In this document: piece by piece, positions 9,056-39,058 of the stretch | Layout of the letters: each line of letters opens with the position of its first letter | Numbering within the stretch: position 1 is the stretch's first letter | Assembly: GCA_014859105.1 (NCBI GenBank) | Contig: JACUUX010000022.1 | Location: 1-41,890 of the forward strand | Reading direction: 5' to 3' | Length of the DNA stretch: 41,890 bases | Origin: Nitrospirota bacterium | GTDB lineage: Bacteria; Nitrospirota; Thermodesulfovibrionia; Thermodesulfovibrionales; SM23-35 | Notes under the pieces: model-generated | The model's database searches: none | What the model saw: the letters and a program-made list of their open reading frames with translations, nothing else | What the model was told of the DNA's origin: nothing | Position numbers and translations under genes: made by a program

Positions 9056-9086
9056 TTGAAATTCATTTGCGGCTGGTTTTTTTCTT

Positions 9087-9154: not shown

Positions 9155-9183
9155 GAAATCCATGATATTTATAAATTTAGATA

Positions 9184-9210
9184 CCCTGCGGTCTTGCCGC
9201 AGGGTTCTTC
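9184..9210 (+). terminator. strong hairpin, possible terminator after rnj
   Basis: CCCTGCGG at 9184-9191 pairs perfectly with CCGCAGGG at 9197-9204 around a TCTTG loop, followed by TTCTTC, a weak T tract. It could end the nuclease-rnj transcript. The weak T tract means it may instead be another small dispersed hairpin. Confidence 0.5.
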
Positions 9211-9273
9211 ATTGATTGTCAAATAGTGTGCCAGGTATTATATAATTGTAATTAAATTGAGGCAGAGGGGAAT

Positions 9274-9757
<484 letters not shown>

Positions 9758-9866
9758 TTCAAAAGCTTTTACTGCTTCCCCCGGCTGCTCTCCTAACTTA
9801 GTTATGCAGCTGGTGGTTTTAGTTAACACACTTATTACTATTTTATTTCTGATATAATTATTATCA

Positions 9867-10634
9867 ATGTTAGAGGCGATAATACTTGGTATTGTGCAGG
9901 GTGTTACGGAATTCCTGCCTATCAGCAGCACAGCACATTTAATATTATTCCCGTGGTTTTTCAACTGGAACGGGGTACTGGATACACTTACATTTAATAT
10001 TGCTCTTCATACAGGTACGCTGATAGCACTCATTATATTTTTCCGGAGGGATTGGATTGACCTGATATTTAAAAAACACACTCTTTTTGGGCTGATTGTC
10101 TTGGCATCGGTTCCTGGCGGATTGGCAGGTTTTTTTCTTAACGATTTTGTGGAAAATAACCTTAGAGACCCTCTGATAATAAGCCTGATGCTTGTTTCAG
10201 TTGGCTTCTTAATGCTGATCTCGGAAAAGTCGAATAAACACAGGGATGTCGAAAGCACGGGCTTAAAAGATGCACTTATCATAGGCATTGCACAGGCTTT
10301 TGCCATTATACCCGGAGTTTCCCGTTCGGGAATCACTATCTCAGCCGGATTGTTCAGGGGATTGGAAAGAGAGGCAGCCGCAAGATTTTCATTCCTTTTA
10401 TCAACTCCGATTATCGCAGGTGCAACTCTGCTTCACTTTAAAGAAGCATTAGATTATTCAATAAATTATGACTTCAAGCTCTTTTTAATGGGAATTGTCA
10501 CTTCTTTCATCACAGGTTATTTTGCCATCAAGTTTTTATTGAGCTTTCTTAAGAGATATCCTTTAAACATCTTCGTTTATTACAGGTTTATACTTTCTGC
10601 TGTTATATTAGCAGGGCTATGGCTAAAAGAATAG
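9867..10634 (+). CDS. uppP: undecaprenyl-diphosphatase
   Basis: UppP removes a phosphate from undecaprenyl diphosphate in the cytoplasmic membrane to recycle the lipid carrier of peptidoglycan synthesis, and confers bacitracin tolerance. The 255 residues form a multi-helix membrane protein. The two conserved blocks are visible: GVTEFLPISSTAHLIL near residue 12 and PGVSRSGITIS near residue 150. The gene overlaps ftsK by 16 bases, so the two are in one operon with coupled translation. Confidence 0.95.
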   Translation: MLEAIILGIVQGVTEFLPISSTAHLILFPWFFNWNGVLDTLTFNIALHTGTLIALIIFFRRDWIDLIFKKHTLFGLIVLASVPGGLAGFFLNDFVENNLRDPLIISLMLVSVGFLMLISEKSNKHRDVESTGLKDALIIGIAQAFAIIPGVSRSGITISAGLFRGLEREAAARFSFLLSTPIIAGATLLHFKEALDYSINYDFKLFLMGIVTSFITGYFAIKFLLSFLKRYPLNIFVYYRFILSAVILAGLWLKE

Positions 10635-12688
10635 AGCGCACAAGAGAAGAAATACTCGGCATTGCTTCCATAATGGGAAGCCTCTATCTTTTAATGAGCA
10701 TGGTCACCCATTATATTAGAGACCCTGTTCTTTTTTTCAGAACTACACAGCCTTCAGAACAAGTACGTAATCTCGGTGGTATAATCGGGGCACATCTTTC
10801 AGGATGGCTGTTTATCTTCTTTGGGCTCTCTGCATACATTATCCAACTTTTATTGCTTGCCTTTGGAATCAGACGCTTGTTAGGAAAAGAGAGTCACAGG
10901 ATATACATGCTTGGCAGCTTTTTATTCGTAATATCTTCCTCATTGTTGTTATCTCTAATGTCAGGTACTCTCAATATAACCGTGGAAGGATATCCTGACG
11001 GTATCGGCGGGCTCACCGGGAGAGGGATTGCTTATCTTGCCAACAGGCTCCTATCTGTCCCCGGTGCTTTTATGTTTTCTCTTTCATTATTCTTATCTTC
11101 AATCATACTGCTGAGCCCCGTGTCGGTAACAGCAATTGCCTACAGAAGAAAAAAGCAAAAAACAAAAACCAAGGAGCAGATCGATGAAACAAGTCAGAAA
11201 GAACAGGAGATATTGATAAGGGAAACCGGACCGGCAGCTGTTCAACAAGCTGTGACCAGGACAGAACCTGAAAGTCCCGGACCAAGAAAAATCGGAGGGT
11301 ATGAACTACCGTCTCTGGAGTTACTGGGCCTTCCAGAGTCCATAACAAGCAGGCCGTCAAAAGACGATCTCCTTTCAGATTCATCATTGATAGAAAAGAA
11401 ACTCGAGGATTTCGGCATTGACGGAAAGATTATTCAGGTACATCCCGGACCTGTTGTCACAATGTATGAATTCGAACCAGCACCCGGGGTAAAGATAAAC
11501 AGGATAGTCTCGCTTTCGGATGACTTAGCGCTTGCACTTAAGGCTCAGAGTGTCAGGGTTTCTCCGATCCCCGGAAGGGCAGTTATAGGAATAGAAGTTC
11601 CCAATAAACACAGAGAGACTGTCTCATTAAGGGAAATTTTATATTCAGAGGGGTTTAAAAAGAGCAGATCAAAATTAACCCTTGGCCTTGGTAAAGATAT
11701 ATACGGAAATCCTGTGGTTGCCGACCTGTCGAAGATGCCACATCTTCTTGTTGCAGGTGCGACAGGATCGGGCAAAAGTGTATCAATAAACTCGATGGTT
11801 ATGAGCATACTCTATAAGGCCACTCCTTCAGAAGTGAAAATGTTAATGGTGGATCCTAAATTGCTTGAACTTTCAGCATATGAAGACATTCTGCATCTTA
11901 TTTCACCTGTGATAACGATCCCTAAAGAGGCTGCAGAGGCATTAAAGAAGATGGTGGTTGAGATGGAACACAGGTACAGAGTTCTCGCAGAAAAGGCCTC
12001 AAGAAATATAGAAAGCTTTAATATGCAGGTAAATGAAGAAGAAAAGCTCCCGTATATTGTTATTATAATTGATGAACTCGCTGACCTTATGTTTACAGCA
12101 CCAAATGACGTTGAAGATTCAATAGCAAGACTCGCCCAGATGGGGAGAGCATCAGGCATTCATCTTATACTTGCAACGCAGAGACCTTCTGTTGATGTTA
12201 TTACAGGCATAATAAAGGCAAACTTTTCTGCAAGGATATCATTTCAGGTTTCCTCGAAAGTCGATTCAAGAACTGTCCTGGATACACACGGGGCAGAACA
12301 ACTTCTTGGCAAGGGTGATATGCTCCTTACGTTGCCCGGTGCAAGAATTATAAGGGTTCACGGAGCTTTTATAACTGAACAGGAAATAAGGGCTGTCAGT
12401 GAATTTGTAAAGTCTCAGGGCAGGCCTGACTATACAATCCTTGAAAGCATACAAGATGCCGGGGCAATGCAAGAAGATGAGAGGGCAGGTGAAAGGGACG
12501 AGATGTATCTGAGAGCGGTCGAACTTGGAGAGATAACCGGAGAAGTATCTATTTCCTCTATTCAGAGGCGGTTAAAGGTAGGGTATAACAGGGCAGCGAG
12601 AATAATGGAATTGATGGAGGAAGACGGCCTCGTCGGCCCCCCAAAAAGCGCCGGTAAACCGAGGGATTTTTTGAGAAGAAGGAAGTGA
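10619..12688 (+). CDS. ftsK: DNA translocase FtsK/SpoIIIE
   Basis: FtsK pumps DNA through the closing septum and helps resolve chromosome dimers. The 689-residue protein has four N-terminal membrane helices (about residues 15-185), a charged linker, the alpha/beta motor with Walker A GATGSGKS (about residue 382) and Walker B IVIIIDELADL, and a C-terminal gamma winged helix (about 620-685) that reads DNA polarity sequences. The linker is short compared with E. coli, which is usual outside the gammaproteobacteria. It overlaps uppP and converges with hisF. Confidence 0.96.
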   Translation: MAKRIERTREEILGIASIMGSLYLLMSMVTHYIRDPVLFFRTTQPSEQVRNLGGIIGAHLSGWLFIFFGLSAYIIQLLLLAFGIRRLLGKESHRIYMLGSFLFVISSSLLLSLMSGTLNITVEGYPDGIGGLTGRGIAYLANRLLSVPGAFMFSLSLFLSSIILLSPVSVTAIAYRRKKQKTKTKEQIDETSQKEQEILIRETGPAAVQQAVTRTEPESPGPRKIGGYELPSLELLGLPESITSRPSKDDLLSDSSLIEKKLEDFGIDGKIIQVHPGPVVTMYEFEPAPGVKINRIVSLSDDLALALKAQSVRVSPIPGRAVIGIEVPNKHRETVSLREILYSEGFKKSRSKLTLGLGKDIYGNPVVADLSKMPHLLVAGATGSGKSVSINSMVMSILYKATPSEVKMLMVDPKLLELSAYEDILHLISPVITIPKEAAEALKKMVVEMEHRYRVLAEKASRNIESFNMQVNEEEKLPYIVIIIDELADLMFTAPNDVEDSIARLAQMGRASGIHLILATQRPSVDVITGIIKANFSARISFQVSSKVDSRTVLDTHGAEQLLGKGDMLLTLPGARIIRVHGAFITEQEIRAVSEFVKSQGRPDYTILESIQDAGAMQEDERAGERDEMYLRAVELGEITGEVSISSIQRRLKVGYNRAARIMELMEEDGLVGPPKSAGKPRDFLRRRK

Positions 12689-12759
12689 TTGAAGCTTTTT
12701 CTGCACATATGCCTTCTCTTTTTATTTTTAACTGCATTTTCCGGGTTAATTTAAGTGCA

Positions 12760-13524
12760 TTATAAATTGACCTGTAATCCTTTTCCCCTTAAATACTCTT
12801 TAACCTCCCCGATGCTTAAAATACGATAGTGAAACACTGAGGCAGCTAACAAAATTCTTGCACCCCCTTGTATAACCGCTTCATAAAAATGCTCTATTTT
12901 TCCGGCACCACCTGAGGCTACAACCGGCACGTCGACAACATCAGAAATCGCCCTTGTGAACTCTATATCATATCCACTCTGTGTTCCATCTCCGTCCATG
13001 CTTGTCGGAAGAACCACTCCTGCTCCCATGTCTTGACATTGTTTTGCCCAGTCAACAGCATCCTTGCCTGCGGATTTGGTTCCTCCTGAGACTACTAATT
13101 CAAACCCGGAAGGCATCGCCTTGTTCCTTCTGGCATCAATAGCTATCGTTATCTTATCCGAACCGAATGTTTTTGCCGCCTGCCTGACCAGGTCAGGGTT
13201 TTTCACAGCAGCACTGTTCATTGAAATCTTATCTGCTCCAGCCTTGAGTACGAGTTCAATATCCTCAAGAGTTGAGATACCCCCACCTACCGTCAAAGGA
13301 ATATCTATAACAGATGACACACTCTTAATCCATTCCAATCTCGTCTTACGATTTTCTACTGTTGCTGCGATATCCAGCATTGCTAATTCATCAGCACCTT
13401 CTTTTTGATAAAATGCTGCATTTTCTACCGGGTCGCCGGCATCTCGTAAGTTTACAAAATGTACACCCTTAACAACTCTACCATGCTTCATATCAAGACA
13501 GGGCATGATTTTTATGATGCTCAT
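12760..13524 (-). CDS. hisF: imidazole glycerol phosphate synthase subunit HisF
   Basis: HisF is the TIM-barrel cyclase that, with the glutaminase HisH, makes imidazole glycerol phosphate and AICAR in histidine synthesis. The 254 residues are the normal length. The two catalytic aspartates are in MPCLDMKHGRVVKG (near residue 10) and AIDARRNKA (near residue 130). VGGGIST and VASGGAG are the phosphate-binding loops. No other his gene is adjacent. The upstream neighbour on this strand is the broken HD-GYP gene, 83 bases away. Confidence 0.96.
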   Translation of the reverse strand: MSIIKIMPCLDMKHGRVVKGVHFVNLRDAGDPVENAAFYQKEGADELAMLDIAATVENRKTRLEWIKSVSSVIDIPLTVGGGISTLEDIELVLKAGADKISMNSAAVKNPDLVRQAAKTFGSDKITIAIDARRNKAMPSGFELVVSGGTKSAGKDAVDWAKQCQDMGAGVVLPTSMDGDGTQSGYDIEFTRAISDVVDVPVVASGGAGKIEHFYEAVIQGGARILLAASVFHYRILSIGEVKEYLRGKGLQVNL

Positions 13525-13607
13525 AATAACTCCTTTGCTATTTGTAATCTACAATCTTTAGAATTATAGTATGACTTAACCCAAATAATGCAATTGGAAT
13601 AATGCAG

Positions 13608-14726
13608 TTATTGCTGCGATAAGGCTCTATACATGCGGCGGAAGAAATTTTCCAGCAGAAATGGATTAAATGCTTTTGCTTCATCGTTGCGCATAAAGGT
13701 TATAATTTCCATGATCTCGAATCCCTTTTTATATGGTCTTGTGCTCCTCAAGACATCAAAGCAATCTGATATTGCAACGACCTGGGCTATAATATGCTGT
13801 TTCATATGACCCATGCGTAGTTCGGGATATCCCTGGTTATCGTACCTCATATGATGCTGAAATGCTACTACAGTAACAAGACTGGGGAGTCCATCTATAG
13901 AAGAGACAAACCGCGCTCCGTATAATGGATGGAGTTTGATCGATTCCTAGTCTTTTTCTTCAAGCAGCTCCCTTTTAACGAGCGTATCTTCCGAAATAAA
14001 CAACTTCCCGACGTCATGGAAAAGTCCTGCTATGCCAATATCACGCAATAAAAGCCTCTCTCTTATACCGAGCGTTTCCATCTGGAAGATGGATAGTACC
14101 GAAACATTTGTCGCGTGAATATAGGAATATTCCTCACGGGATTTGGCATAAGTCAATAATTTGAGGATGTTTATTTGCTTTTTGCAAGCAGATACAAAAT
14201 TTCCAATGACCTCATTAATTTTTATAATGTTTACCTGTCCGCTCTGTGAAATGTCTCTATATACCTCTTTCACATTTTCTATCTGTTTCAAGACAAAGCC
14301 GGACACATCCGTGTCATCAAAATCGTCTTCGATCCTTGATTCATCCAGCTGTATATCAAGTACCCCTGTTTTAATGTGAGGAAAAGAAGGCATTGCCTTG
14401 CCGATTTGCTGTATTTCAGAAATAAATTGCTTGAATTCTGTAAAAGTTACGCCTGACAAAAATTGAATTCTCGAAAGGCCCTTTCTCTTAAGACGTTTTT
14501 TCAGATTATTTGCCTGGAGTCCCATGCCTTTGAACGATACCTTATTAATAATCAAATCGTCCTCGATGAGCATTATCTCCAGGCTGCCCGATTGTGCCAG
14601 CAGCCGATCCAGTATCATAAGGGACTTCCGTGTTAATTCATCAACCGCAATATGATCCATGGAATAAAGCGAACAATTTGAAACAGTCGCCATGAGCGTA
14701 GATATGAAGTTTTTTACTGTGTCCAT
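13608..14726 (-). pseudogene. HD-GYP domain phosphodiesterase, broken by one in-frame TAG
   Basis: The frame from ATG at 14724-14726 is open to a TAG at 13947-13949 and continues in the same frame to 13608. The full span is 1119 bases, the same length as the intact paralogue at 20813-21931. The N-terminal part holds a domain shared with the HEAT proteins, then HATNVS and HDVGKLF. After the stop come LHPLYGARF and the GYP signature HHMRYDNQGYP. HD-GYP enzymes hydrolyse cyclic di-GMP, and here the stop separates the metal site from the GYP loop. No other damage is seen, so the mutation is recent or the stop is read through. It abuts the upstream HEAT gene with no gap. Confidence 0.85.
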
Positions 14727-16898
14727 TTACTGTGTCCTCATCCTGCTTAACCTCAATGATTCGCCTTTGATGTAAGCATTTCTGGATTTAAGACCTGCCT
14801 GAACAATATCTTCGATGTATTCATACGGATAATTTCTTAAATTTCTGTATATCTCCTCCTTGAGTTTCTCCCGTCCGCCACCGAGAAAGGGGATACTTCG
14901 GCTGAATATTATCTCTCTGAAAGCTTCAAGTGAGGCTGGGTCCGCGATATTGCCGAGAGCCTGGATGACAGCGATCTTCTGTGACACATCGGTTTTACTC
15001 ATTCCTCCTCTCCTGATTATTTGCACAAGATCATGAACCACTTCTCTGACTCTGTAATCGCCGGATAACGTTATGCCCCGCTCGATTTCCTCCTCAGACC
15101 CGGAACGTAGATTTTCCCTGATAATATCAAGACCGTATTGGTCTTCGAGGCTTAAGAGGCATTTGACTGCTTCAAGACTAACCTTATTGTTTTCATGGTG
15201 GCAATAGTTTTTCACATATGGAATGATTTCCTTTTTTTTGCAGCCGCTAAGAAGGTAAAGCATGTTCCTTTTCACAAACCATCTCGAATCATCGAGGCGA
15301 TTTAAAGCTTCCGGAACCAATAGATCGCCATACTGTTTGATCAAGCTCATTAGCAGACTTCTGAAGGTTTGTGAATCCTCATTGATGAGTGCATCCATCA
15401 GGAACGGAATGAACAGATCACCAAAATATTCACAGAGTTTCCATGCTTCGTCCCTTGCCTGTCTTCCCATGATTTTGAGTGAATCTAAAAAGGTTGAAAA
15501 AAATTCCTGTGTATGGTAATGTCGCAGCGCATCCGACGTTATTTCAGAGAACCTGTTCTTTTCTATATTCAATTGAAGCAGTTTTATTATTTCCAAAATC
15601 TGTTTGTACTGGCCGGTCCATAAAAACTGTGCTGTCTGTTCCTTGAGATTTTCTATGAACTGAATGTATTCCTTTTCCGAGACGATATCTGATGACATAA
15701 GTTCGAGAATCACACGGTTAAATGTCTTTGCGATAACATCATCATCAATTTCATTTTTTAGATCAGGTAATCTTATGGAAACCGTTTCAGGTGTACCAAA
15801 TTCCATAATTTTCTTGATTTCCTCCTGGTATTTTTCACTCACGGAGGTTTCAAAAGAATCGGCGAACGCTTCTTTTACTTTCGAATTCGAGAGCTTATCC
15901 ATCACATTTAATGGCAGGGAAATATCATCTACAATACAATGTCCTTGAACTGTCATACATCCCAGAGCTTCATGGTCGATATGCAATAACTTGTTAAAAA
16001 GATTTTTGAGATTGTCCGGTATCGCTATTTTTTGTGATATGGTAGCCTCAAATAATTCCATGACCAAATCTGCTGATATGTCCCCGAGTGCAACCGAGGC
16101 TGAAGGGATATCTTTTGAGAGTGTTTCAACTACCGTAGAAAGAAATTGTTCCGCGAGATCTGGCGGCATCTCACTGATGTATGAAAGGAACTTTTTTATT
16201 TCTTTATTCGAAAGCGGTCTCTGGAAAAACTTTCTAATATATATGGCGATAATCTTTTTAGAAGGTGCTCGGTCAACGCTGTCCTTATACAATCTGCTCA
16301 AAATGTTGAAAAAAGCGTCAAGAGGCATTTCTTTGATTTCTTCGGAAACCTCTTCGGTCTTAATTGTTCCGGTAAGAATGCCCTTAATATATAATTCCCA
16401 AAGATCATTCTGCGGTATTTGATTTGCGGTTTTACCCTCTTGAAAAGAAAATACTTCGTAATCAACAAATCCTACCCCGATATGAGATAAATCATAGCTA
16501 CCAATGATTTCAGGAATATCTTCCTGAGATATATCTTTGGCCTGTGTATGTATAATCCGGCTGAATCTATACAGTTCATCTGACGACAGACCATGAGAAA
16601 AGGTTATATAAGCAATGTTCAGCCCTTTGAGTTGCTGTGAGAATTGCTTATATGCGGGGTTTTTCTTGTCAAGCGTGTAGTTATCGACTATAAGTGCATC
16701 TATTCCAACGGCAAATGTAATAACCGGTCTGAGTTCAAATATGTTGTTGAACACATTTAAAACCTGATTCATGGATTTTTGAACGGCTGGATGCTCTCCG
16801 GGATATATTGATATATTACGGCTTGCGATCATAAACTCTTTGATCAGGCCTTCTATCAATTTTATATCAGGAGGAGTATTGTTGATTGCCCCGGTCAT
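14727..16898 (-). CDS. HEAT-repeat protein, copy A of a paired module
   Basis: This 723-residue protein has no signal peptide or membrane segment. Residues about 20-120 form a domain (NISIYPGEHPAV, ALIVDNYTL, FSHGLSSDELYRF) that also resembles the N terminus of the adjacent HD-GYP protein. Residues about 490-715 contain HEAT or PBS-lyase-like helical repeats (for example IPFLMDALINEDSQTFRSLL and RRGGMSKTDVSQKIAVIQAL). The middle is helical and unassigned. Its paralogue at 18654 has the same order and size. Placement next to HD-GYP and GGDEF genes suggests it is a scaffold in cyclic di-GMP signalling. This is inference; no catalytic motif is seen. Confidence 0.8.
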   Translation of the reverse strand: MTGAINNTPPDIKLIEGLIKEFMIASRNISIYPGEHPAVQKSMNQVLNVFNNIFELRPVITFAVGIDALIVDNYTLDKKNPAYKQFSQQLKGLNIAYITFSHGLSSDELYRFSRIIHTQAKDISQEDIPEIIGSYDLSHIGVGFVDYEVFSFQEGKTANQIPQNDLWELYIKGILTGTIKTEEVSEEIKEMPLDAFFNILSRLYKDSVDRAPSKKIIAIYIRKFFQRPLSNKEIKKFLSYISEMPPDLAEQFLSTVVETLSKDIPSASVALGDISADLVMELFEATISQKIAIPDNLKNLFNKLLHIDHEALGCMTVQGHCIVDDISLPLNVMDKLSNSKVKEAFADSFETSVSEKYQEEIKKIMEFGTPETVSIRLPDLKNEIDDDVIAKTFNRVILELMSSDIVSEKEYIQFIENLKEQTAQFLWTGQYKQILEIIKLLQLNIEKNRFSEITSDALRHYHTQEFFSTFLDSLKIMGRQARDEAWKLCEYFGDLFIPFLMDALINEDSQTFRSLLMSLIKQYGDLLVPEALNRLDDSRWFVKRNMLYLLSGCKKKEIIPYVKNYCHHENNKVSLEAVKCLLSLEDQYGLDIIRENLRSGSEEEIERGITLSGDYRVREVVHDLVQIIRRGGMSKTDVSQKIAVIQALGNIADPASLEAFREIIFSRSIPFLGGGREKLKEEIYRNLRNYPYEYIEDIVQAGLKSRNAYIKGESLRLSRMRTQ

Positions 16899-17103
16899 CT
16901 TGCTATTTCTTGCTCACAGCTAATCTGTTTTTTCAGTTCAATGCTGACGATAAGATCTTCAGGCCAAGCTTTGCATTTACCGGCCTTTAGATTGTGCATA
17001 AAAAACTCGATGTAACTTTAACATACTCATGGCTAAAATTAATACTTTCTCACGGGAATTACGACCTGTGCCAACGGTATGACAGGAGAATCCACACAGA
17101 ATC

Positions 17104-18333
17104 TTATCTCTGACAAAGATAAGGTTTATGAAGTAAAACCCGGTTTTTCCCCGCGGATTTTGCCTGATAGAGGGCCATATCTGCCGCTTCAATGACTTTG
17201 TATATTGTATCCCCATCTTCCGGAAAACTTGCAACTCCTCCACTTATTGATACGAAACCAATAGGCTGCTTTTCCCTGTATTGGAAAGGATGCTGTGAAA
17301 TCTTTTCCCTGAACCTCTCTGCAAATATAAAGGCATCTTCTTTTGTAATGCCGGGTAACATGACAATAAACTCCTCCCCTCCATATCGAACTATAGTAGA
17401 ATCTTTTCGGGTAGCCTCACGTAAAAGCTGGCCAAGTTCTATTAAAAGTTTGTCACCTGCAGTATGACCGTTTGAATCATTGTAGTGTTTAAAATTATCA
17501 ATATCAAAGAGAAAGATAGATGTCGCAGCTCCATCCCGGACTGATGTCTCGATACAATATTGTGCCATTTTAAAAAAATAATTCCGGTTATTCAAACCTG
17601 TCAATGGGTCTGTGTTGGCCTTATGTTGTGCTTCATTGAGCATTGTTTGGTTAATAAGAGCTACACCTGCTATATCTGCAATCATCCTCAATAAGTCACT
17701 TTCATTTCCTGCCGGGTTGTCAATTTCTCCTATGCCAATGACACCAAGGAGCCTGTCTTTGAAGATAATCGGGACTGCCATCCAGATTTGCGACAACGAA
17801 TTATTATCGGTATTCTGTTGGGAGTAGAGTTTGTTGAAATGCTCTCTCACCATTACAAAACGGTGCTTGGCGGCAGCTCCTATAAGACCTTCTCCTATGG
17901 CATATGAAACCTCTTCCTGTTGCGTACTACCATTTATAGATTGCCTTTTAAGCAGATTATTCGATGAATCAAAAAGATAGATTTCTACTTTATCAGTTAA
18001 CGTGACGTCGTTCACCATTTCTGTGATAGTCAGCATTATCGTTTGCAATTTCGATGTTGAATTCAAACGCTGAACAATAGTCGGGACTTTTAAAATAAAA
18101 GATAGATAATGACTGTTAAGCTCAACCAGTTTATTAATTTCGACATTAAGTTTTTGGAGCTGACGATCTCTGTAAAGTATTTCCTTCAGATATGCTTTAT
18201 CCTGCCCGTTATCGTTTCCTCCAGATTTTCCCATCCCCCGAGAAGATCGAAAAATAAAAAACGAAGGGACACCGATGGCGATTATTATAGCTATGCCTAT
18301 GAGTATATAATGTTCAAACACTTTCAACCTCAA
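17104..18333 (-). CDS. membrane-anchored GAF-GGDEF diguanylate cyclase
   Basis: The enzyme should make cyclic di-GMP from two GTP. The 409-residue protein has one N-terminal transmembrane helix (about residues 8-28), a short coiled segment, a GAF-like domain (about 75-225, IGEGLIGAAAKHRFV and AVPIIFKDRLLGVIGIGE), and a C-terminal GGDEF domain (about 235-405). The active-site loop reads RYGGEEF, a functional variant. No RxxD inhibitory site is seen at the usual position five residues before it, so product feedback may be absent. It lies between the two HEAT/HD-GYP modules, 205 bases upstream of copy A. Confidence 0.93.
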   Translation of the reverse strand: MRLKVFEHYILIGIAIIIAIGVPSFFIFRSSRGMGKSGGNDNGQDKAYLKEILYRDRQLQKLNVEINKLVELNSHYLSFILKVPTIVQRLNSTSKLQTIMLTITEMVNDVTLTDKVEIYLFDSSNNLLKRQSINGSTQQEEVSYAIGEGLIGAAAKHRFVMVREHFNKLYSQQNTDNNSLSQIWMAVPIIFKDRLLGVIGIGEIDNPAGNESDLLRMIADIAGVALINQTMLNEAQHKANTDPLTGLNNRNYFFKMAQYCIETSVRDGAATSIFLFDIDNFKHYNDSNGHTAGDKLLIELGQLLREATRKDSTIVRYGGEEFIVMLPGITKEDAFIFAERFREKISQHPFQYREKQPIGFVSISGGVASFPEDGDTIYKVIEAADMALYQAKSAGKNRVLLHKPYLCQR

Positions 18334-18400
18334 CCGGTTTTTATCAAAAGATAAATAGATATCCTTATTCTATCCTGCTTGATTCATAAATTTAACATTC

Positions 18401-18512
18401 ATCGGCAGATACAGTATTGTCGCTCATTCTCAGCCCCTATAAGACCGGGGCTTCCGAGGTAAATTCTTTCTTCGAAAGAATTTAAACCCGCTCAAATACT
18501 GTATCTGCCGAT
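18401..18512. repeat. three-stem structured repeat, copy 1
   Basis: A perfect 18-bp outer inverted repeat (18401-18418 with 18495-18512, core CGGCAGATACAGTATT) encloses two hairpins: AGCCCC/GGGGCT (18432-18452) and AAATTCTTTC-TTC-GAAAGAATTT (18461-18483). The unpaired boxes CGCTCATTCTC and CCGCTC flank the hairpins. A second copy at 25325-25434 has the same layout with different stem sequences. The outer arms extend weakly through TTCATAAA and TTTATGAA. It fills most of the 320-bp gap between the divergent GGDEF and HEAT genes. Confidence 0.85.
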
Positions 18513-18653
18513 AATTTTATGAATTTTCCATGCTATATATCTCTATAATAATTATTAAGCCATATGATCAAATGGTCAATCCTACCCAGGTAGTATTTAA
18601 AAATAAAACAATTACTTATAATATTAATAAAGGATTAGAATTGAGGAGCAGCC

Positions 18654-20807
18654 ATGGCTGATGATCTTGAAAAAATGCCGCTCGATGCCCGGCTTTTGAG
18701 TTATGCGATTATTGAGTTGAATATTTCACGCCGTAATGTAGCAATATACCCAAGAGAGCACCCTTCGGTAGAAAGATCATTAAATCAGGCATTCAAATTT
18801 TTTAAAAGACTTTTTGAGATCAGATCTGAAATCACTCTTGCAATAGCAAAAGATATAATTATCATAGATAACTATCAGCTTGATAAAAAAAATCCCGTCT
18901 TCAGGGAGTTTGCTCTCAACCTCAGCAAAATAAATATCGCATATGTGACATTCAAAAGTGGTGTCACAAAAGATGAACTGTATAAATTTCATAGCTTTCT
19001 TTTACAAAAGGCAGATGATTGGACCGTTGACAGTATAAAGGAAGTCTTCAAAAAATATAGCCTGATTCATATTAGTGTCGGTTTTGTCGATTATGGGACA
19101 TTCTCATTTGGAGAAGGCAATGCTGTTCAGAAAACCAATAATATACCTCTCTGGGAGCGTTATATATATGGCTTACTTAAAGGCACGCTGCAGACCGAGG
19201 AAATATCTGAAGAAGTTAGAGACATACCCCCTGAAATACTTGCAAGGCTTTTAAACAAGGTTTCGTTTCATGACCTTAAGGCGGAAACCTATGATAAAGT
19301 GATTACTACTTACATGAAAAGTTCTTCAGACAGGGTTTTTTCAGATCAGGATCTGCAGAGAACGCTGGAATTTATAAATCATCTAAGACCCGATCTTAAA
19401 AAGCAGTTTCTCTCTTCCGCGGTGAAAACTTTTTCACAAGATATTGACTCAGCCTATCTGGCATTTAAGAAAATATCGGTTGATGAAGTTCTATCATTTC
19501 TTGATGTAATCAATGAACAGAGAATCGCTATACCACAAAACCTTATGGGTCTCATCGACAGGTTGTCTTATACCGATCAGAATGATGCTGATACTATTTA
19601 CCTTGAAGATGACCTTACTGGAGATGAATTATCCATTCCCCCTGAAATTGCCTGCCTTTTTAATGAAGACAACCCTGAGACACAGATACCCCTTGAGACA
19701 CCGATAACCGAAGAATATCCACAGGAAATTCAGAGCATTTTGGATTTTGATGCCTCGGAACTAAAAACTTCCCATATCATGGAGTTTGAAAATGAATTCA
19801 AAGATGATCTTATTGAAAAGAGATTTTATCAGATCATTCTTGAACTTATGTTATCTGAAACAGTGTCAGAGGCAGAATATAGATCATTTGCGAATATTAT
19901 AAAAAAACAGACTGAACAGTTATTATGGATCGGACAATACGGACAGATTCTTGACGCACTGAAAATTATTGAATCAAATAAAACACAGAATAGATTTCCT
20001 GATATCAATGCAGAGGCTATTCAATATTATTATTCTCCAGAATTTATCTCGCCGCTGACTGAGTCTTTAAGAATTTTAGGGAGACAAAGGAGAAGAGAAG
20101 TATCGATGATATGCTTGTATTATGATGCGAAAATCATTCCTTTCTTAATGGATGCACTCATTGAAGAAGAGTCTCAAGTAGTCCGAAGATTCCTGATGGA
20201 TCTGCTAAAACAATATGGCGATAAGGTAATTCCTGAAGCAGTAAAGCGCCTTGCTGATGAGAGATGGTTTGTAAAAAGAAATATGCTGTACATCCTTAGC
20301 GAAACAGATAGCAAGGAAGTAACTGACTATATAAGACCCCACTGCAAGCATGAGAATCTTAAAGTGAGTGTTGCAGCCATAAAATGTTTGCTGAATGCCG
20401 GAGACATATATGCCATTGAGGCAATTAAGGAGCACCTGGGCTCGAAAATAAAAGATAAGGTTGATCAGGCCGCCGCTCTTTCAGGTTCTTTCAGAATAAA
20501 AGAAGTCGTTGGAGATTTAATCCTGCTGCTCAATAAAACGGAGCGGACAGGATCTGATCTCGACAAGATTCCGATAATAAGGGCGATTGGGGAAATAGGC
20601 GACCTGCAAGCGGTTGATGCTTTTCGGTCACTGCTTTCAAGCAGGAGATTCTTCTTTAAGAGAATTACGGATCTGCTAAAAGAAGAAATATATAAGACAC
20701 TCAAAAACTATCCATATGAGTCGGTTAAAGACTTGATAGAAGCTGGATTAAAATCTAAGAACGAATTTATAAGAGAGGAGTCATTACGTCTAAGCAAGGG
20801 AAAATAG
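18654..20807 (+). CDS. HEAT-repeat protein, copy B of a paired module
   Basis: This is a 717-residue paralogue of the protein at 14727-16898, with matching N-terminal domain (NVAIYPREHPSVERSLNQAF, DNYQLDKKNPVFREF), middle region and C-terminal helical repeats (IIPFLMDALIEEESQVVRRF, RLADERWFVKRNMLYILS). There is no signal peptide. It precedes an intact HD-GYP gene by 5 bases, repeating the gene order of copy A. The ATG at 18654 has GAGGAG nearby. The role is probably regulatory or scaffolding for the HD-GYP partner. That rests on conserved pairing and not on any known activity. Confidence 0.82.
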   Translation: MADDLEKMPLDARLLSYAIIELNISRRNVAIYPREHPSVERSLNQAFKFFKRLFEIRSEITLAIAKDIIIIDNYQLDKKNPVFREFALNLSKINIAYVTFKSGVTKDELYKFHSFLLQKADDWTVDSIKEVFKKYSLIHISVGFVDYGTFSFGEGNAVQKTNNIPLWERYIYGLLKGTLQTEEISEEVRDIPPEILARLLNKVSFHDLKAETYDKVITTYMKSSSDRVFSDQDLQRTLEFINHLRPDLKKQFLSSAVKTFSQDIDSAYLAFKKISVDEVLSFLDVINEQRIAIPQNLMGLIDRLSYTDQNDADTIYLEDDLTGDELSIPPEIACLFNEDNPETQIPLETPITEEYPQEIQSILDFDASELKTSHIMEFENEFKDDLIEKRFYQIILELMLSETVSEAEYRSFANIIKKQTEQLLWIGQYGQILDALKIIESNKTQNRFPDINAEAIQYYYSPEFISPLTESLRILGRQRRREVSMICLYYDAKIIPFLMDALIEEESQVVRRFLMDLLKQYGDKVIPEAVKRLADERWFVKRNMLYILSETDSKEVTDYIRPHCKHENLKVSVAAIKCLLNAGDIYAIEAIKEHLGSKIKDKVDQAAALSGSFRIKEVVGDLILLLNKTERTGSDLDKIPIIRAIGEIGDLQAVDAFRSLLSSRRFFFKRITDLLKEEIYKTLKNYPYESVKDLIEAGLKSKNEFIREESLRLSKGK

Positions 20808-20812
20808 AATAA

Positions 20813-21931
20813 ATGGAAACTTTAAAAAGATTCATATCAATATTCATGTCTGCTGTTTCAAATTGCTCTCTTTATTCAAAAGAGCATGCTTTTGTTGATG
20901 AATTAAGCCGGAAGGCATTATCCATACTCGGTGAACTGTATAAAGAAGCGGATAGTCTTGAGATAATGATATTGGAAGATGACCTCATAGCTAATAAAAT
21001 GGCTGTCAGAGATATAGGGATTCAGGGTTTAAATTTAATAAAAAGACTCAAAAGAAAGGGTATTTCCCGGATTGATTTTTTAAAAGGAATTACCCTTTCA
21101 GAATTGAAACAACTTGTTGCCGATATCTCAACGACAGAAAAAGGGGCAAAGCCCCATCAGCATATTAAGGTTGGAGTTGTGGATATCCGGATTGGCAGAT
21201 TTGAAATTGATAAAGATTTTGATATTGACAGCTTATCGAATTTCACATCAGAACAGGTTGAAAAAGTTAAGAGGGAATATAACAGTATCTCACCTTTCAA
21301 AAAGCTTAAGATTGCAGGATTGGAAGAAATAGTGGTTCAATTCAGCCTGATGGTGAAAAAAGAAATCAATATCCTTAAGCTGTTGTGCCCTGCCCGGTCA
21401 TACAGTGAAAATGATTATACACACGCAACAAATGTTTCAGTGCTTACCATGTTTCAAGCCCAGACTATCGGTGTTCGGGAGGAATTTCTCCGTGATATAG
21501 GGATAGCCGCACTTCTCCATGATACAGGAAAATTATTGATTCCCGGGGGCGGTGGATTTCTTAAAAGACAGGATTCCTCTGAAGCGGAAGAAAATGAGGA
21601 AACAGAGATTCACCCGTTATACGGCGCACAATATCTTGCAAAAATAAATGGTCTCACGCGACTTGCACCCATAGTAGCTTTTGAACACCATCTGAGATAT
21701 GACGGCAGGGGATATCCAAAACTTAAAGGAGGCAATATAAAACAGCATATTTGCAGTCAGATGACAGCAATTTCTGATTATTTTGACAATTTAAGGAGTA
21801 GAAAACCTTACAAGGGAGCTTTAGAAATAAAGGAGGCGCTCTCTTTAATGAAAACAAAAGACGAAGGATTATTTAATCCTTTCTTAATAGACAATTTTAT
21901 AAGGTCAATACATTTAGCACTATCCGGATAG
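20813..21931 (+). CDS. HD-GYP domain cyclic di-GMP phosphodiesterase, intact copy
   Basis: The 372-residue protein has an N-terminal domain (about residues 15-110: NCSLYSKEHAFV, DDLIANK, FLKGITLSELKQL) shared with the HEAT proteins, and a C-terminal HD-GYP domain. HATNVS, LLHDTGKLLIP, IHPLYGAQYL and the GYP signature HHLRYDGRGYP carry the expected metal ligands, so hydrolysis of cyclic di-GMP is plausible. The linker after HDTGK is glycine- and acid-rich and differs from the broken paralogue. It lies 5 bases downstream of HEAT copy B and is surely co-transcribed. Confidence 0.88.
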   Translation: METLKRFISIFMSAVSNCSLYSKEHAFVDELSRKALSILGELYKEADSLEIMILEDDLIANKMAVRDIGIQGLNLIKRLKRKGISRIDFLKGITLSELKQLVADISTTEKGAKPHQHIKVGVVDIRIGRFEIDKDFDIDSLSNFTSEQVEKVKREYNSISPFKKLKIAGLEEIVVQFSLMVKKEINILKLLCPARSYSENDYTHATNVSVLTMFQAQTIGVREEFLRDIGIAALLHDTGKLLIPGGGGFLKRQDSSEAEENEETEIHPLYGAQYLAKINGLTRLAPIVAFEHHLRYDGRGYPKLKGGNIKQHICSQMTAISDYFDNLRSRKPYKGALEIKEALSLMKTKDEGLFNPFLIDNFIRSIHLALSG

Positions 21932-21949
21932 CCCTCAGCACGCGAGGCT

Positions 21950-22510
21950 CTACAATTGCGAGCCGAATTGATTGTCGGGGGAATATATGAGTTTGCGCAT
22001 AATCGCCATTCTATTCTCGGTACCGGTCTTTGAATAAATATTGCTGAGATGGTCCTTTACTGTCTGCTCGGATATCTCAAGCTCTACTGCAATTTCAGTG
22101 TTTTTGTAACCATCAAGCACTAGCCTGAGTATATCCGTCTCCCGCCTGGTCAATTTAAATTCTTGTCTTATGCCATTCATATCCAGCTTATTAGAAACAG
22201 TTTCCTCAAAAATAAGAACATAGACAAGCGGATCTGTTTTTTCATATATGTAGATTCTGAATAACCAGTTACTTGCTGAGCCGTTAAGTTTTTTTCTAAA
22301 ATAAATCTCCCCCGGAAAGAGTTCACCGAGTTTTCGTGCTCTAATAGCATCGAATATTCTCCTGCTGATGGTTTTTATCTCCTCGGGTAACTCAAAGCAT
22401 TTGAGAAAGCTCGATGCTTTTCTGTTACAGTAAATTATATCCATTTTATGTTTGAAAATAATTAAACCTGTAGGGCATTTATTGATAATAAATTCTATCT
22501 CTTCAACCAT
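21950..22510 (-). CDS. PAS-like/LuxR-type HTH transcriptional regulator
   Basis: The protein (186 residues from ATG at 22510, which has GAGGAGTGGGG upstream) has an N-terminal sensor-like region resembling a PAS fold (IINKCPTGLIIFKHKMDIIYCN). The C-terminal LuxR/FixJ helix-turn-helix reads LTRRETDILRLVLDGYKNTEIA then ISEQTVKDHLSNIYSKTG. There is no receiver domain. A TTG start 6 codons upstream is possible but would overlap the Shine-Dalgarno. It converges on the HD-GYP gene with an 18-base gap. It may control the signalling genes or the acetate genes; nothing in the sequence decides. Confidence 0.85.
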   Translation of the reverse strand: MVEEIEFIINKCPTGLIIFKHKMDIIYCNRKASSFLKCFELPEEIKTISRRIFDAIRARKLGELFPGEIYFRKKLNGSASNWLFRIYIYEKTDPLVYVLIFEETVSNKLDMNGIRQEFKLTRRETDILRLVLDGYKNTEIAVELEISEQTVKDHLSNIYSKTGTENRMAIMRKLIYSPDNQFGSQL

Positions 22511-22571
22511 TCCATCCCCACTCCTCAACTGCGGATTTTAAAGATTTAATACATAATAACATTTGTAACTA

Positions 22572-25265
22572 TTATTTGGCCTGCAATTCTAATGCGACTC
22601 TTACCGAATCCTCATCAGATGAAACCTTTTTGAATCCTAATTTCTCAGCTCTTTTCAGCATCCTGTTATTGACCTGTAAAATCTCCATCCACATTTTCTT
22701 TATCCCAAGCTCTCTGGCTATCTTCAAACAATGTTCACACAGTGTATTGCCAACTCCCTGTCCCTGCCACTGGTCCCCGACAATTACTGCCATTTCAGCA
22801 TTCTCAAGATCCGGCTGCCTGCTCATTCGGACGTCTCCGATTATCCTCTCATGTGAACCGTCTCTTATAACTGCGACAAAGGCAAGCTCTCTGTCATAGT
22901 CAACATGACAATATTTCACCAGCTGCTCGTGTGGCAGATCAGGAGTTTTCCTGAAAAATCTCAACATAAGTGTTTGTTCAGAAGAACTCTTTAAAAGTTT
23001 ATCTATTAAGGGTTCGTCTTCCGGGCGGATAGGTCTTATGACAACAGGTATTCCATTTTTTAATTTAAATATATCAATGTACTGATCCGGATATGGACAG
23101 ATGGAAAGGTGAGGTGGACAGAAATCTCCTTTTACAGGCTGAAACCCTTCAAGTATATCAGCTTCGAGTAAAATACCTGCATCCAGGGCAAAGCCTCCAT
23201 CCTGTGTTACAAAGAACGGGTTTATATCGAGTTCTTTAATGTGAGGAAAATGGATAATCAGATGAGAAAATCTCACCAGGATCTCTTCTATGTATCTCAA
23301 TGTTTTTTCATAGGCCTTCTGATTTCTCAGATATTTGTAGATTTTAGTCTCGCTCATCATACGTATTGCCAGAGTCTGATTCAGAGGAGGAAGTCCTATT
23401 GAATAGTCCTCTACAGTCTCGAGCATTTCACCACCTGTACCAAAAACAATTACTGAACCAAAGGTAGGATCTTTTTTTGTACCTATTACGAGTTCATAAC
23501 CTTGTTTTGCCACCATGGGCTGTATCAAAACATTTGCATGCGTGTCCTTTAAAGAGATTGCGAGCTCTTTGAGCTTCCTGAATGCTTCTCCTACAGAATC
23601 CCGATTCCTGAGATTTAAAATAACGCCTTCGTGTTCAAACTTATGGAAAAGTTTCTGTGAATCAATCTTTAAAACCACAGGATACCCTATAGATTCAGAG
23701 ACCCTGACAGCTTCTTCCTCATCTTGAGCTTTTTGTGTGGTGACCACCGGTATGCCATATGACTGAAGCAACTCTTTTACTTCATTGAAGCTCAAGATTA
23801 ATCTCTTTTCTTCAGATGCCGTCCTGATTATATCTTCTGCCTTGTCTTCATTTGGCTCAAAGTCCTTAAGGATTACCTCCGGTGTTTCATGGAGGAGTCT
23901 GAGATTATAGTCATAACGATGCATGTAGATGAAGCTTCGTACTGCCTGTTCGGGAGAAACAAAGGTTGGTATCCCTTGTTCATTGAGAAATTCTCTTGCT
24001 GAAGTTACGTGTTCATCTCCCATCCATGTTGTAAATGTTGGCTTATAAGGATACAATCTTGCTGCTGATACCACTGCTTCAGCAATCTTTTCTGAATTGG
24101 AGGCATATGACGGGGTATGAATAACGAGAACCCCGTCAATTTCCTTATCCATTAAGCAGCTTTTAGCAGCAGTATAGTAGTCCTGCTCTGTTGATTCAAA
24201 AAGGAGGTCAACCGGGTTCTGAAAATGTTTTACAGAAGGAAACTGCCTCCTGAGGTTTCCTAAAGTTTCCTGGCTCAGGTTTGCCAGTTCACCGTCTAAT
24301 TTCAGCAGGGTATCAACAGCTATTACTGCAGGGCCACCCGAGTTTGTTATAATAGCCAAACGGTTCCCCTTTGGTCTCGGCTGTTTTGCCAGTGATTCTG
24401 CTAAATAGAAAAGATCAACTATCTCATCTACCCTTATCGCTCCCGCCCTTTTGAAAGCTGCATCATAAACCCTATCCTCACCGGCCATAAATCCTGAATG
24501 TGTTAATGCTATATGAGCTGAAACATCAAATTTCCCGGATTTTATTACCATAATCGGTTTACTTGAAGCAAAGCTGCGTACAGCGGTCATGAATCTTCTT
24601 CCATTTTTTATGGATTCAATATAGAGGATAATAGCCCTTGTCTCCGGGTCTACACCCAGGAAATCGATAAGATCAGCAAATTTAATGTCTATTTTTGTGC
24701 CAACAGAAATAAAATAACTGAACCCGATTTTTTTACTTAGTGTCAGGTCTAAAAGGGCGATAGAAAGTGTGACACTCTGAACTATAAAAGCAATGTTGCC
24801 CTTTGGCGGTATAAGAGGAAAAAGACTTGCATTAAGGTTTATTCCCGGTCTGATGAAACCAAGGGAATCAGGTCCTAAAAGTCTGAATCCATACCTCTCA
24901 GAGGCTTGTTTCATCTTTCTCTGGAAGAAATGAACATCTTCTACCCTTTCTTTGAAGTCAGGACATAAAATGATTGTGCCTTTAACTTTCTTGTTTCCGC
25001 ATTCTTCAAGTGTATCAAGTATTTCTGCAGGAGGGACGGCTAAGATTGCCAGGTCAATGTCCCGGGGTATAGATGTAATTTTTGGATATGCTTCCACTCC
25101 CTGTACAGCTTCACATTTTGGATTAACAGGGTACACAGAGCCTTTAAAACCGTGACCCAGAAGATTTTTAAAAATAGAATATCCAATAGTATTCTTATCT
25201 TCGTTTGCACCAATAACTGCAATTCTTTGAGGGTTAAAAAAGAAATCAAGATTTTTTACAGACAT
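22572..25265 (-). CDS. acyl-CoA synthetase-like/GNAT protein acetyltransferase (PatZ-like)
   Basis: The 897-residue protein combines an ADP-forming acyl-CoA synthetase-like core with a C-terminal GNAT acetyltransferase. From the N terminus: CoA-binding domain (IAVIGANEDKNTIGYSI), succinyl-CoA ligase-like domains (GFSYFISVGTKIDIKFADLI), an ATP-grasp part (about residues 480-700, GYPVVLKIDSQKLFHKFEHEG), and GNAT (about 735-890) with the acetyl-CoA loop QWQGQGVGNTL. The same architecture in E. coli PatZ and Salmonella Pat acetylates and shuts down acetyl-CoA synthetase. Here it lies 230 bases from acs on the same strand, which supports that role. Confidence 0.9.
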   Translation of the reverse strand: MSVKNLDFFFNPQRIAVIGANEDKNTIGYSIFKNLLGHGFKGSVYPVNPKCEAVQGVEAYPKITSIPRDIDLAILAVPPAEILDTLEECGNKKVKGTIILCPDFKERVEDVHFFQRKMKQASERYGFRLLGPDSLGFIRPGINLNASLFPLIPPKGNIAFIVQSVTLSIALLDLTLSKKIGFSYFISVGTKIDIKFADLIDFLGVDPETRAIILYIESIKNGRRFMTAVRSFASSKPIMVIKSGKFDVSAHIALTHSGFMAGEDRVYDAAFKRAGAIRVDEIVDLFYLAESLAKQPRPKGNRLAIITNSGGPAVIAVDTLLKLDGELANLSQETLGNLRRQFPSVKHFQNPVDLLFESTEQDYYTAAKSCLMDKEIDGVLVIHTPSYASNSEKIAEAVVSAARLYPYKPTFTTWMGDEHVTSAREFLNEQGIPTFVSPEQAVRSFIYMHRYDYNLRLLHETPEVILKDFEPNEDKAEDIIRTASEEKRLILSFNEVKELLQSYGIPVVTTQKAQDEEEAVRVSESIGYPVVLKIDSQKLFHKFEHEGVILNLRNRDSVGEAFRKLKELAISLKDTHANVLIQPMVAKQGYELVIGTKKDPTFGSVIVFGTGGEMLETVEDYSIGLPPLNQTLAIRMMSETKIYKYLRNQKAYEKTLRYIEEILVRFSHLIIHFPHIKELDINPFFVTQDGGFALDAGILLEADILEGFQPVKGDFCPPHLSICPYPDQYIDIFKLKNGIPVVIRPIRPEDEPLIDKLLKSSSEQTLMLRFFRKTPDLPHEQLVKYCHVDYDRELAFVAVIRDGSHERIIGDVRMSRQPDLENAEMAVIVGDQWQGQGVGNTLCEHCLKIARELGIKKMWMEILQVNNRMLKRAEKLGFKKVSSDEDSVRVALELQAK

Positions 25266-25324
25266 TATTTGATTCCTTTACAAATATATTTCTGCCCAGT
25301 TAATTCACAAAATATTAATAAACG

Positions 25325-25434
25325 ACAGAGGATATGGTATTTTCGCTCATTCTCGGCTGCCGATACATCGGCAGCCTGCGAGGCAATTCTTTCTTCAAAA
25401 GAATTGAAATCCGCTCTGATACTATATCCTCCGT
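25325..25434. repeat. three-stem structured repeat, copy 2
   Basis: The outer arms at 25325-25340 and 25418-25434 (GAGGATATGGTAT against ATACTATATCCTC) pair with one mismatch and one G-T wobble. Inside are a perfect GGCTGCCGAT-AC-ATCGGCAGCC hairpin (25355-25376) and CAATTCTTT/AAAGAATTG (25384-25406). It shares CGCTCATTCTC and CCGCTC boxes with copy 1 but has different stem sequences. It lies between acs and the PatZ-like gene. Confidence 0.85.
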
Positions 25435-25495
25435 CCACCACAGAAAATTTATTAATTAACTGGGTTAGGTCAAAAAATATAATAAATGATGATTT

Positions 25496-27466
25496 TTAAA
25501 GTTTCCCCTGAAGGATTTGATTCACAACAGAAGGGTCGGCAAGGGTTGATGTATCTCCCAGATCTTCGGTATCACCTCTTGCTATCCTTCTGAGAATTCT
25601 TCTCATAATCTTGCCGCTTCTGGTCTTAGGTAACCCCGGAGTGAACTGTATTTTGTCGGGAGTTGCAATTGGTCCGATTACCTGGCGAACATGACCTATC
25701 AGCATCTTGGTGAGTTCCGGTGTAGGTTCATAGCGATCTTTCAGTGTGATGAAAACATATATACCTTCGCCTTTAATTTCGTGCGGGAACCCGACGGTTG
25801 CAGCTTCTACAACCGCTTGATGACTCACCAACGCTGATTCGATCTCAGCAGTTCCAAGCCTGTGCCCTGAAACATTAATAACATCATCTATTCTTCCCAT
25901 CAACCAGTAATCGCCATCCTCATCCATCCTGGCACCGTCACCAGTGAAATATTTTCCGGGGAATCTTGTAAAGTAGATTTCTTTTACACGCTTATTTTCG
26001 GGATCTCCATATGTTCCACGGAGCATAGCCGGCCATGGTTTTTCAATAACAAGATATCCGCCTTCGTTGACAGAGGCTGGTGAGCCATCTTCTTTTAATA
26101 TATTTGGAACTACACCAAAGAAGGGTTTACTGGCCGAACCCGGTTTGGTAGCCATTACACCTGGGAGTGGAGTTATAAGAATTGCACCTGTTTCGGTCTG
26201 CCACCATGTATCCACAACAGGCAATCTTGACTTTCCTACATGGGTATGGTACCACATCCAGGCCTCAGGATTGATCGGTTCTCCCACAGTGCCGAGCAAT
26301 CTCAGCGAAGAGAGGTCATGTTTTTTAACCCATTCGGCGCCTTCTCTCATTAGAGCCCTGATCGCAGTAGGTGCTGTATAGAAAATATTCACCTTAAATT
26401 TGTCTACAATCTTCCAGAACCTGCCCGGGTCAGGATATGTAGGGACCCCTTCAAACATGAAGCTTGTTGCACCATTGCTCAGCGGTCCGTATACAATATA
26501 ACTATGACCGGTAACCCAACCTATATCTGCAGTGCAGAAGTGGATATCTTCGTCATGATAATCGAAGATCAAATTAAACGTCAGGTTGGTAAAGAGTAAA
26601 TATCCACCTGTTGTATGCAGGACTCCTTTTGGCTTGCCTGTAGAGCCCGAGGTATACAGTATAAAGAGAGGGTCTTCTGCATCCATCCATTCCGGCTCAC
26701 AGTAATCTTTTATTTCTGGATCATTCATCTCGTCATGCCACCAGAAATCCCTTTTTGGTTCCATGTCAACATATATACTTCTCTTCACGACTATCATTTT
26801 TTCTATAGTAGGACATTCCTGCAATGCCAGATCAGCATTCGATTTAAGCGGTACATACCTTCCGCCCCTTATGCCCCTGTCCGCAGTGATGACTAATTTT
26901 GACTTGCAGTCCTGGATTCTTTCCTTTAATGCCTGTGCACTGAAACCGCCGAAGACCACACTATGAATAGCTCCTATACGGGCACAGGCGAGCATGGCTA
27001 TGGGAAGCTCAGGAATCATCGATAGATAGATTGTTACCCTGTCGCCCCTTTGTATACCGTGCCTTTTAAGTACATTGGCAAATTTATTCACTTCATAATA
27101 AAGCTGCTGGTAAGTGTACGTTTTATATTCACCATCATCAGACTCCCAGATAATAGCAGCCTTGTTTCTGATAGGGGTATTAATAAACCTGTCCAGACAG
27201 TTATATGATGCGTTGAGTTTGCCGCCGATAAACCATTTAATGTCCGGTTTCTCGAAGTTCCATTGGAGCACTTTGTCCCATTTCTTAAACCATGTCAGCT
27301 GCTTTTCCGCCATTTCTGCCCAGAAACCTTCGGGGTCTTCAACAGACCACTTATAGAGCATTTCATACTCCTCCATACTCTTGATGTGAGCCTTCTCGCT
27401 GAATTCCTTTGAAGGTGGGAATGTCCTCTTTTCTTTTAATAATACGTCGATGCTTTCCTTAGACAT
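25496..27466 (-). CDS. acs: acetyl-CoA synthetase (AMP-forming)
   Basis: Acs makes acetyl-CoA from acetate, ATP and CoA through acetyl-AMP. The 656 residues are the usual length. [15 protein letters not shown] is the P-loop-like AMP-binding motif, DTWWQTETG the adenine-binding motif, and [16 protein letters not shown] and [18 protein letters not shown] the hinge region. Near the C terminus, [11 protein letters not shown] holds the catalytic lysine that Pat/PatZ enzymes acetylate. The gene encoding such an enzyme lies directly downstream on the same strand. Confidence 0.97.
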
Positions 27467-38641: not shown

Positions 38642-38670
38642 CGAGTGGGGGTTAATGCCTAAGGTTGAGG

Positions 38671-39039: not shown

Positions 39040-39058
39040 TCAATGTAGGAGGTCATAT

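Follow-up and report, generated by a model that had tools for sequence, protein, structure and literature searches.

In signalling of the RpfG/RpfC type, an HD-GYP enzyme acts with a dedicated partner protein. The best-matching solved relative of the enzymes discussed here, the cyclic di-GMP (c-di-GMP) phosphodiesterase PmGH of Persephonella marina (4mcw), carries a GAF domain. Its metal ligands and the E/D-T-G signature that defines a trinuclear subgroup are given in the consulted part of PMC4159591. According to the same part, enzymes with Tyr or Phe at the position of E185 (the Y/F group) are expected to bind metals differently, and the unconventional HD-GYP protein Bd1817 of Bdellovibrio (3tm8 and 3tmb) is without the Tyr of GYP and inactive. 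Here we describe a locus in a 41,890-nucleotide stretch of DNA from a Nitrospirota bacterium (GCA_014859105.1, contig JACUUX010000022.1, positions 1 to 41,890), called the window below. By its open reading frames (ORFs), the window has two units on opposite strands, copy A and copy B, each composed of a HEAT-repeat gene and an HD-GYP gene, with a GAF-GGDEF gene in between. The two genes form a fixed pair in two phyla, and both proteins start with the same domain of about 130 residues (the N-domain). We propose, as a fairly probable reading, that the pair is a two-protein c-di-GMP unit, in which the HEAT protein would use the shared N-domains to bind and control its partner, a phosphodiesterase.

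The linkage was surveyed in a draw of 198 genomes from the Nitrospirota-type phylum, with cut-offs of E 1e-20 for HEAT and E 1e-42 for HD-GYP matches. A HEAT match was found in 68 genomes and an HD-GYP match in 137. Removal of second pieces of already listed HEAT genes left 103 HEAT places; for 93 of them the match list shows HD-GYP immediately downstream in the same orientation. Of the other ten, seven were read, and an HD-GYP gene was found in six (G062, G088, G050, G171, G039 and G005), the one in G005 being present in broken form. The four remaining places are at contig edges: G101, together with G042:C4, G126:C218 and G103:C30, the last three of which start within 15 bases of a contig end. 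In total, HD-GYP directly follows HEAT in the same orientation at 99 of the 103 places, and at the four others the contig ends; none of the 99 testable places has both genes intact but far apart. Among the HEAT homologues of 61 relatives that reach E 1e-50 or better and lie off the contig edges, all adjoin an HD-GYP match, the HD-GYP gene at G005:C40:142676 being broken. The gap between the two genes is within -20 to +10 bases in 15 of 20 cases. No fusion of HEAT and HD-GYP into one chain was seen in the loci that were read, where no systematic search for it was made. In one relative the HEAT gene is split by an opposite-strand ORF of 381 aa, perhaps an insertion (L096 10233-13727, G017:C372).

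A similar linkage was found in Gemmatimonadota, where a search at E 1e-8 found HEAT in 52 of 101 genomes. In 37 of 38 regions from 38 genomes, the HEAT gene is overlapped or adjoined by a same-strand HD-GYP gene; the exception (L224) ends near a contig edge. In one region (L206) only HD-GYP passed the region-reading thresholds, the HEAT match there coming from the E 1e-8 search. Pairs are also present in G218, one of the 14 matched genomes outside this set of 38. The initial annotation had asked for a neighbourhood check of HEAT homologues and had named unlinked ones as the refuting case; such a case was not seen among the places read in these two phyla and was encountered in a third one, described below.

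The N-terminal parts of the window proteins are homologous over about residues 15-150 of HEAT and 4-127 of HD-GYP (hhalign 95.5%, E 1.5e-8, window proteins alone). With 21 sequences per side, the comparison of HEAT-I with HD-I gave a score of 92.2 (E 3.7e-15), against a maximum of 20.9 in 100 column shuffles. The type II HEAT and HD-GYP proteins scored 34.5 against 20.4 in shuffles, and the two cross-type comparisons scored 36.2 against 23.0 and 33.5 against 18.0, while seven reversed-profile controls ranged from 11.9 to 15.3. Both predicted models show the element order helix-helix-strand-strand-helix-strand-helix plus a closing strand, with one additional helix ahead of the closing strand in the HEAT model. 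No Pfam match below 0.06 was obtained for any of 18 members of this domain, and a sequence search against solved structures yielded weak, unrelated matches (best 2.8e-05) with no stretch passing alone. No fold was identified for the N-domain in fold searches, where matches to the HD-GYP and HEAT parts took up the results, so a known fold may still apply.

A census of the N-domain in 36 relatives and the genome of the window (37 genomes, cut-off E 1e-6) found it in 29 genomes at 118 places. Of these places, 112 constitute 56 adjacent pairs on one strand, the distance between starts ranging from 1549 to 3280 bases, and a genome has up to four parallel pairs. The genome of the window has six places, which are those of copies A and B and of one type II pair (contig C98). 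The six single places are G004:C201, G004:C158, G017:C136, G032:C27, G009:C141 and G008:C7; an HD-GYP gene adjoins nonetheless at G009:C141, and G032:C27, which is full-length, may be an HD-GYP protein that stands alone. In addition, one N-domain lies in the C-terminal half of a different protein (L263, G219:C23:23207-23584), the start of which resembles what we take to be a DUF4388/PATAN-type domain. These distributions bear on an alternative in which both proteins serve the same pathway and do not bind each other, the N-domain being a sensor for a common ligand or a homodimerizer and the HEAT protein an effector or c-di-GMP receptor. Its predicted strands and helices would suit a ligand-binding domain, and it is also seen without an HD-GYP neighbour and, in L263, joined to another signalling-type region; the one-to-one pairing of nearly all places, however, is more in line with a heteromer than with a free sensor, and we consider this alternative unlikely.

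Trees were built for 37 HEAT/HD-GYP pairs, and their distances were correlated on 35 of them after two long-branch rows were dropped. The HEAT and HD-GYP distances agree with an r of 0.904 (permutation maximum 0.465, with 0 of 2000 reaching r), which is support rather than proof, as species phylogeny alone raises such a correlation. In all four genomes with two pairs, cognate pairing gave a higher r than swapped pairing. Copy B forms a clade with G005:C40, G002:C29, G017 and G008 (support 100% in the HEAT tree and 99% in the HD-GYP tree), and copy A sits on a long branch (0.84) with no firm placement in the HEAT tree. The HEAT data reject A and B as sisters (approximately unbiased test, AU, p 0.0008), but the HD-GYP data do not (AU p 0.09). 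The grouping of copy B with other genomes and the rejection by the HEAT data thus make a recent local duplication improbable, and A and B are probably old paralogues now side by side. The earlier idea that the pair was kept through duplication therefore survives as deep paralogy, and probably not as a recent event.

The catalytic residues of the HD-GYP protein are well kept. All of the seven PmGH metal ligands examined and the GYP motif are present in 37/37 type I and 9/9 type II enzymes of Nitrospirota, copy A being included with its stop written as X, and HD-GYP B has the complete set; all seven ligands are found in 32/37 Gemmatimonadota enzymes. The position of E185 is Tyr in 30/37 type I and 9/9 type II enzymes and Asn in HD-GYP B, and the E/D-T-G signature is absent from the pair enzymes. 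Therefore, by the grouping in the consulted part of PMC4159591, enzymes with Tyr at this position fall in the Y/F group. Among solved sequences, the closest to the family is PmGH (6.6e-41), followed by the cyclic GMP-AMP (cGAMP) phosphodiesterase V-cGAP3 (4.3e-36). The predicted model of HD-GYP B (predicted local distance difference test, pLDDT, 79.6) superposes in its C-terminal part on Bd1817 (Z 23.6, 221 residues, root-mean-square deviation, RMSD, 3.0) and on PmGH (Z 17.6, 184 residues, RMSD 3.9).

The gene between the two units was called a GGDEF gene in the initial annotation, and Pfam bears this out (GGDEF 1.6e-44, GAF 3e-07), with a GGEEF motif that fits GG(D/E)EF. Orthologues (E 2e-176 to 3e-187) are located just upstream of the HEAT gene in the four relatives that group with copy B (in G005 the two genes share a strand, in the other three they diverge), giving a linkage in 5/5 genomes. 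No orthologue was found in any other pair neighbourhood examined. Therefore, the GGDEF gene is the third member of one subgroup alone, that of the copy B type. This restriction to one clade also leaves room for a rival view, which we regard as improbable, that the GGDEF gene is no more than a common neighbour and the HD-GYP protein acts on 3'3'-cGAMP or pGpG, or mainly binds. The second-best match to V-cGAP3 and the Y/F assignment, with the differing metal centre expected in the consulted part of PMC4159591, speak for it; the full conservation of metal ligands and GYP in Nitrospirota and the best match to a c-di-GMP enzyme speak against it.

Several observations weigh against a bound c-di-GMP phosphodiesterase, in addition to the contribution of species phylogeny to the tree agreement. 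Replacement of E185 would possibly give a two-metal centre and other substrates, judging from the residues and the consulted part of PMC4159591, and one ligand differs in 5/37 Gemmatimonadota enzymes. A distant HEAT homologue with both the N-domain and the WFVKRNM motif of the HEAT family occurs in 10/10 genomes of a third phylum (that of L026 and L027, records titled UBP2 and Candidatus Edwardsbacteria), and 0/9 readable loci have an HD-GYP neighbour, the tenth locus being at a contig edge; in two of these genomes HD-GYP matches are confined to the catalytic part. The HEAT protein can thus exist, or have a role of its own, outside the two phyla. The neighbours of these lone HEAT genes were read as purH and guaA in seven loci (by eye, translations only), and the flanks in L238-L246 might indicate a tie to guanine nucleotide synthesis. 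The neighbours of the pairs themselves are mostly housekeeping genes (Obg, TatA/TatC and Ffh-like; by eye from translations) and point to no single process. A function deduced from neighbours was rejected, since the genes next to type I and type II pairs vary between genomes (Obg, TatA/TatC or Ffh-like) and no common pathway emerges. Such flanks would suit ordinary operon neighbours with no functional contact, but this is very improbable for two genes that move together between at least three settings (GGDEF-linked, beside Obg and beside TatAC), are kept in two phyla and share an N-domain.

That the HEAT and HD-GYP proteins work together, as the initial annotation had suggested, is well supported by sequence comparison, namely the near-universal linkage in two phyla, the private shared N-domain and the agreeing trees. 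For the bound and controlled phosphodiesterase that we propose, the HD-GYP protein would be an active enzyme hydrolyzing c-di-GMP, and the HEAT protein its dedicated partner, with the predicted contact made by the homologous N-domains. The HEAT superhelix might tie the enzyme to a target or alter its activity. At copy B, a diguanylate cyclase as third member would bring signal making, breaking and scaffolding to one locus, and copy A would be an old paralogue, now with a truncated enzyme. We also suggest, tentatively, that such pairs represent an undescribed and widespread class of units, in which a phosphodiesterase and a HEAT scaffold recognize each other through a private N-domain as insulated one-to-one pairs, some with a cyclase. 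If true, up to four insulated pairs per cell would allow local control of c-di-GMP. Bacteria often have many enzymes for one diffusible signal, and for the question of how each of them acts locally the pair would offer a test bed of specificity. It would also assign a function to a domain missing from Pfam and help to interpret many HEAT and HD-GYP genes whose annotations are at present unconnected.

The HD-GYP gene of copy A is interrupted. Both HD-GYP genes had been described as 1119 bases long; that of copy B is open throughout, and the corresponding stretch of copy A (13608-14726) is broken by an in-frame TAG. Before the TAG, copy A is 51% identical to copy B over 245 residues, and after it 52% identical over 106 residues. 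The product would end ahead of the H250-equivalent ligand, the later metal ligands and GYP, and does not have an intact catalytic domain, its frame ending at codon 260; the frame behind the TAG retains the later metal ligands. In the alignment, the TAG column is tryptophan in 21/37 rows. This tryptophan column and the ligands kept downstream indicate that the break is young or an artefact, and the likeliest explanation is a recent nonsense mutation or an error in the assembly. Recoding of TAG was ruled out, as TAG is the ordinary stop for 10 of 26 window genes checked.

Two relatives show comparable breaks. A further pair in the G005:C40 relative (L145 3524-4641) has an open HEAT frame and an HD-GYP gene split into two frames, a second instance of enzyme loss next to a retained HEAT gene. 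In the G001:C45 HD-GYP relative, a TGA (L003 2327-2329) occupies an N-domain column that is otherwise almost always Cys, and SelB is above cut-off in the same genome. No hairpin resembling a selenocysteine insertion sequence (SECIS) was found after this TGA, the following 44-54 bases folding worse than shuffles (z 0.85 and 1.16). Selenocysteine is disfavoured by the missing hairpin, and a nonsense mutation or assembly error is likelier.

The features of the locus are collected in Table 1. The initial annotation had reported two similar HEAT genes of 723 and 717 residues on opposite strands, and this holds, HEAT A and HEAT B being 41% identical over 719 aligned columns, end to end. In pairwise alignments, the likeness of HEAT A to B and of HD-GYP A to B is far above chance. 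The HD-GYP gene starts at the first base past the HEAT stop in copy A and after a 5-base gap in copy B. HEAT_2 is detected in both HEAT proteins with 34.9 and 49.9 bits against the Pfam cut-off of 27.7 (3.9e-13 for HEAT B, which passes the cut-off), and HD-GYP B is matched by HD_5 (9.4e-15) and by HD. The copy A piece past the TAG is barely over the HD_5 cut-off. The WFVKRNM motif is invariant in 22 aligned HEAT proteins. The predicted model of HEAT B (pLDDT 78.4; predicted template modelling score, pTM, 0.46) has a well-predicted helical repeat of helix pairs as its C-terminal half and a low-confidence middle, with residues 306-351 below pLDDT 50. An Rfam scan of window positions 9000-27000 gave zero matches.

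Table 1. Coordinates of the paired genes, their shared domains and the gene between them in the window.
Feature	Positions	Strand	Length and basis
HEAT-repeat protein, copy A	14727-16898	-	723 aa; ORF and Pfam HEAT_2
HEAT-repeat protein, copy B	18654-20807	+	717 aa; N-domain, helical middle, HEAT repeats
HD-GYP protein, copy B	20813-21931	+	372 aa; N-domain, linker helices, HD-GYP domain
HD-GYP copy A, open part	13947-14726	-	259 aa; N-domain, linker, HD motif; stops before GYP
In-frame TAG, copy A HD-GYP gene	13947-13949	-	codon 260
Copy A HD-GYP frame past the stop	13608-13946	-	52% identity to copy B
GAF-GGDEF protein, probable diguanylate cyclase	17104-18333	-	409 aa; Pfam, GGEEF in translation
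Shared N-domain, HEAT B	18654-19133	+	profile comparison
Shared N-domain, HD-GYP B	20813-21232	+	profile comparison
Shared N-domain, HEAT A	16419-16898	-	profile comparison
Shared N-domain, HD-GYP A	14307-14726	-	profile comparison
WFVKRNM motif, HEAT B	20265-20285	+	residues 538-544
WFVKRNM motif, HEAT A	15261-15281	-	residues 540-546

Two further features of the window were noted. A LuxR-type regulator with a weak PAS match lies at 21950-22528, convergent with the copy B HD-GYP gene. The region 38665-41843 looks like a diversity-generating retroelement, with a bAvd-like gene (1e-14), a reverse transcriptase whose C-terminal part is MutS_I-like and two flanking Lcl_C proteins, whose genes have common stretches of 147 and 40 nt with 76 and 93% identity.

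Compared with the described systems, the pair combines known parts in its own way. With PmGH it has in common the HD-GYP domain, GYP, the fold and seven of the eight metal ligands. In contrast to PmGH, which has the E-T-G signature according to the consulted part of PMC4159591, the pair enzyme mostly has Tyr at the position of E185, and also has an unnamed N-domain and a HEAT partner gene. Bd1817 is highest in fold similarity, but the pair enzyme has a complete GYP, and its N-domain is outside the aligned range. Similar to RpfG/RpfC, the HD-GYP enzyme comes with a dedicated partner; no receiver domain of the RpfG type was matched in the HD-GYP protein by Pfam at E up to 1, and the Pfam scan of the HEAT protein gave no kinase domain. 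HEAT repeats are common to the pair and to PBS lyase or NblB-like proteins, but the additional N-domain and the HD-GYP partner are particular to the pair, and the NCBIfam NblB model gives 17.5 bits on the HEAT protein against a cut-off of 300. Against the anti-phage defence models of PADLOC, neither HEAT A, HEAT B nor the intact HD-GYP protein has a match at E up to 0.01; weak matches were obtained to HEAT and Cas3 (HD) for type II proteins and to Cas10 for the GGDEF protein. The pair is undescribed in the consulted parts of the papers found, a coverage outside which subscription papers and preprints lie. HD-GYP enzymes, HEAT proteins and GGDEF neighbours are all of known kinds, and it is the fixed pair with a private shared domain that appears to be new.

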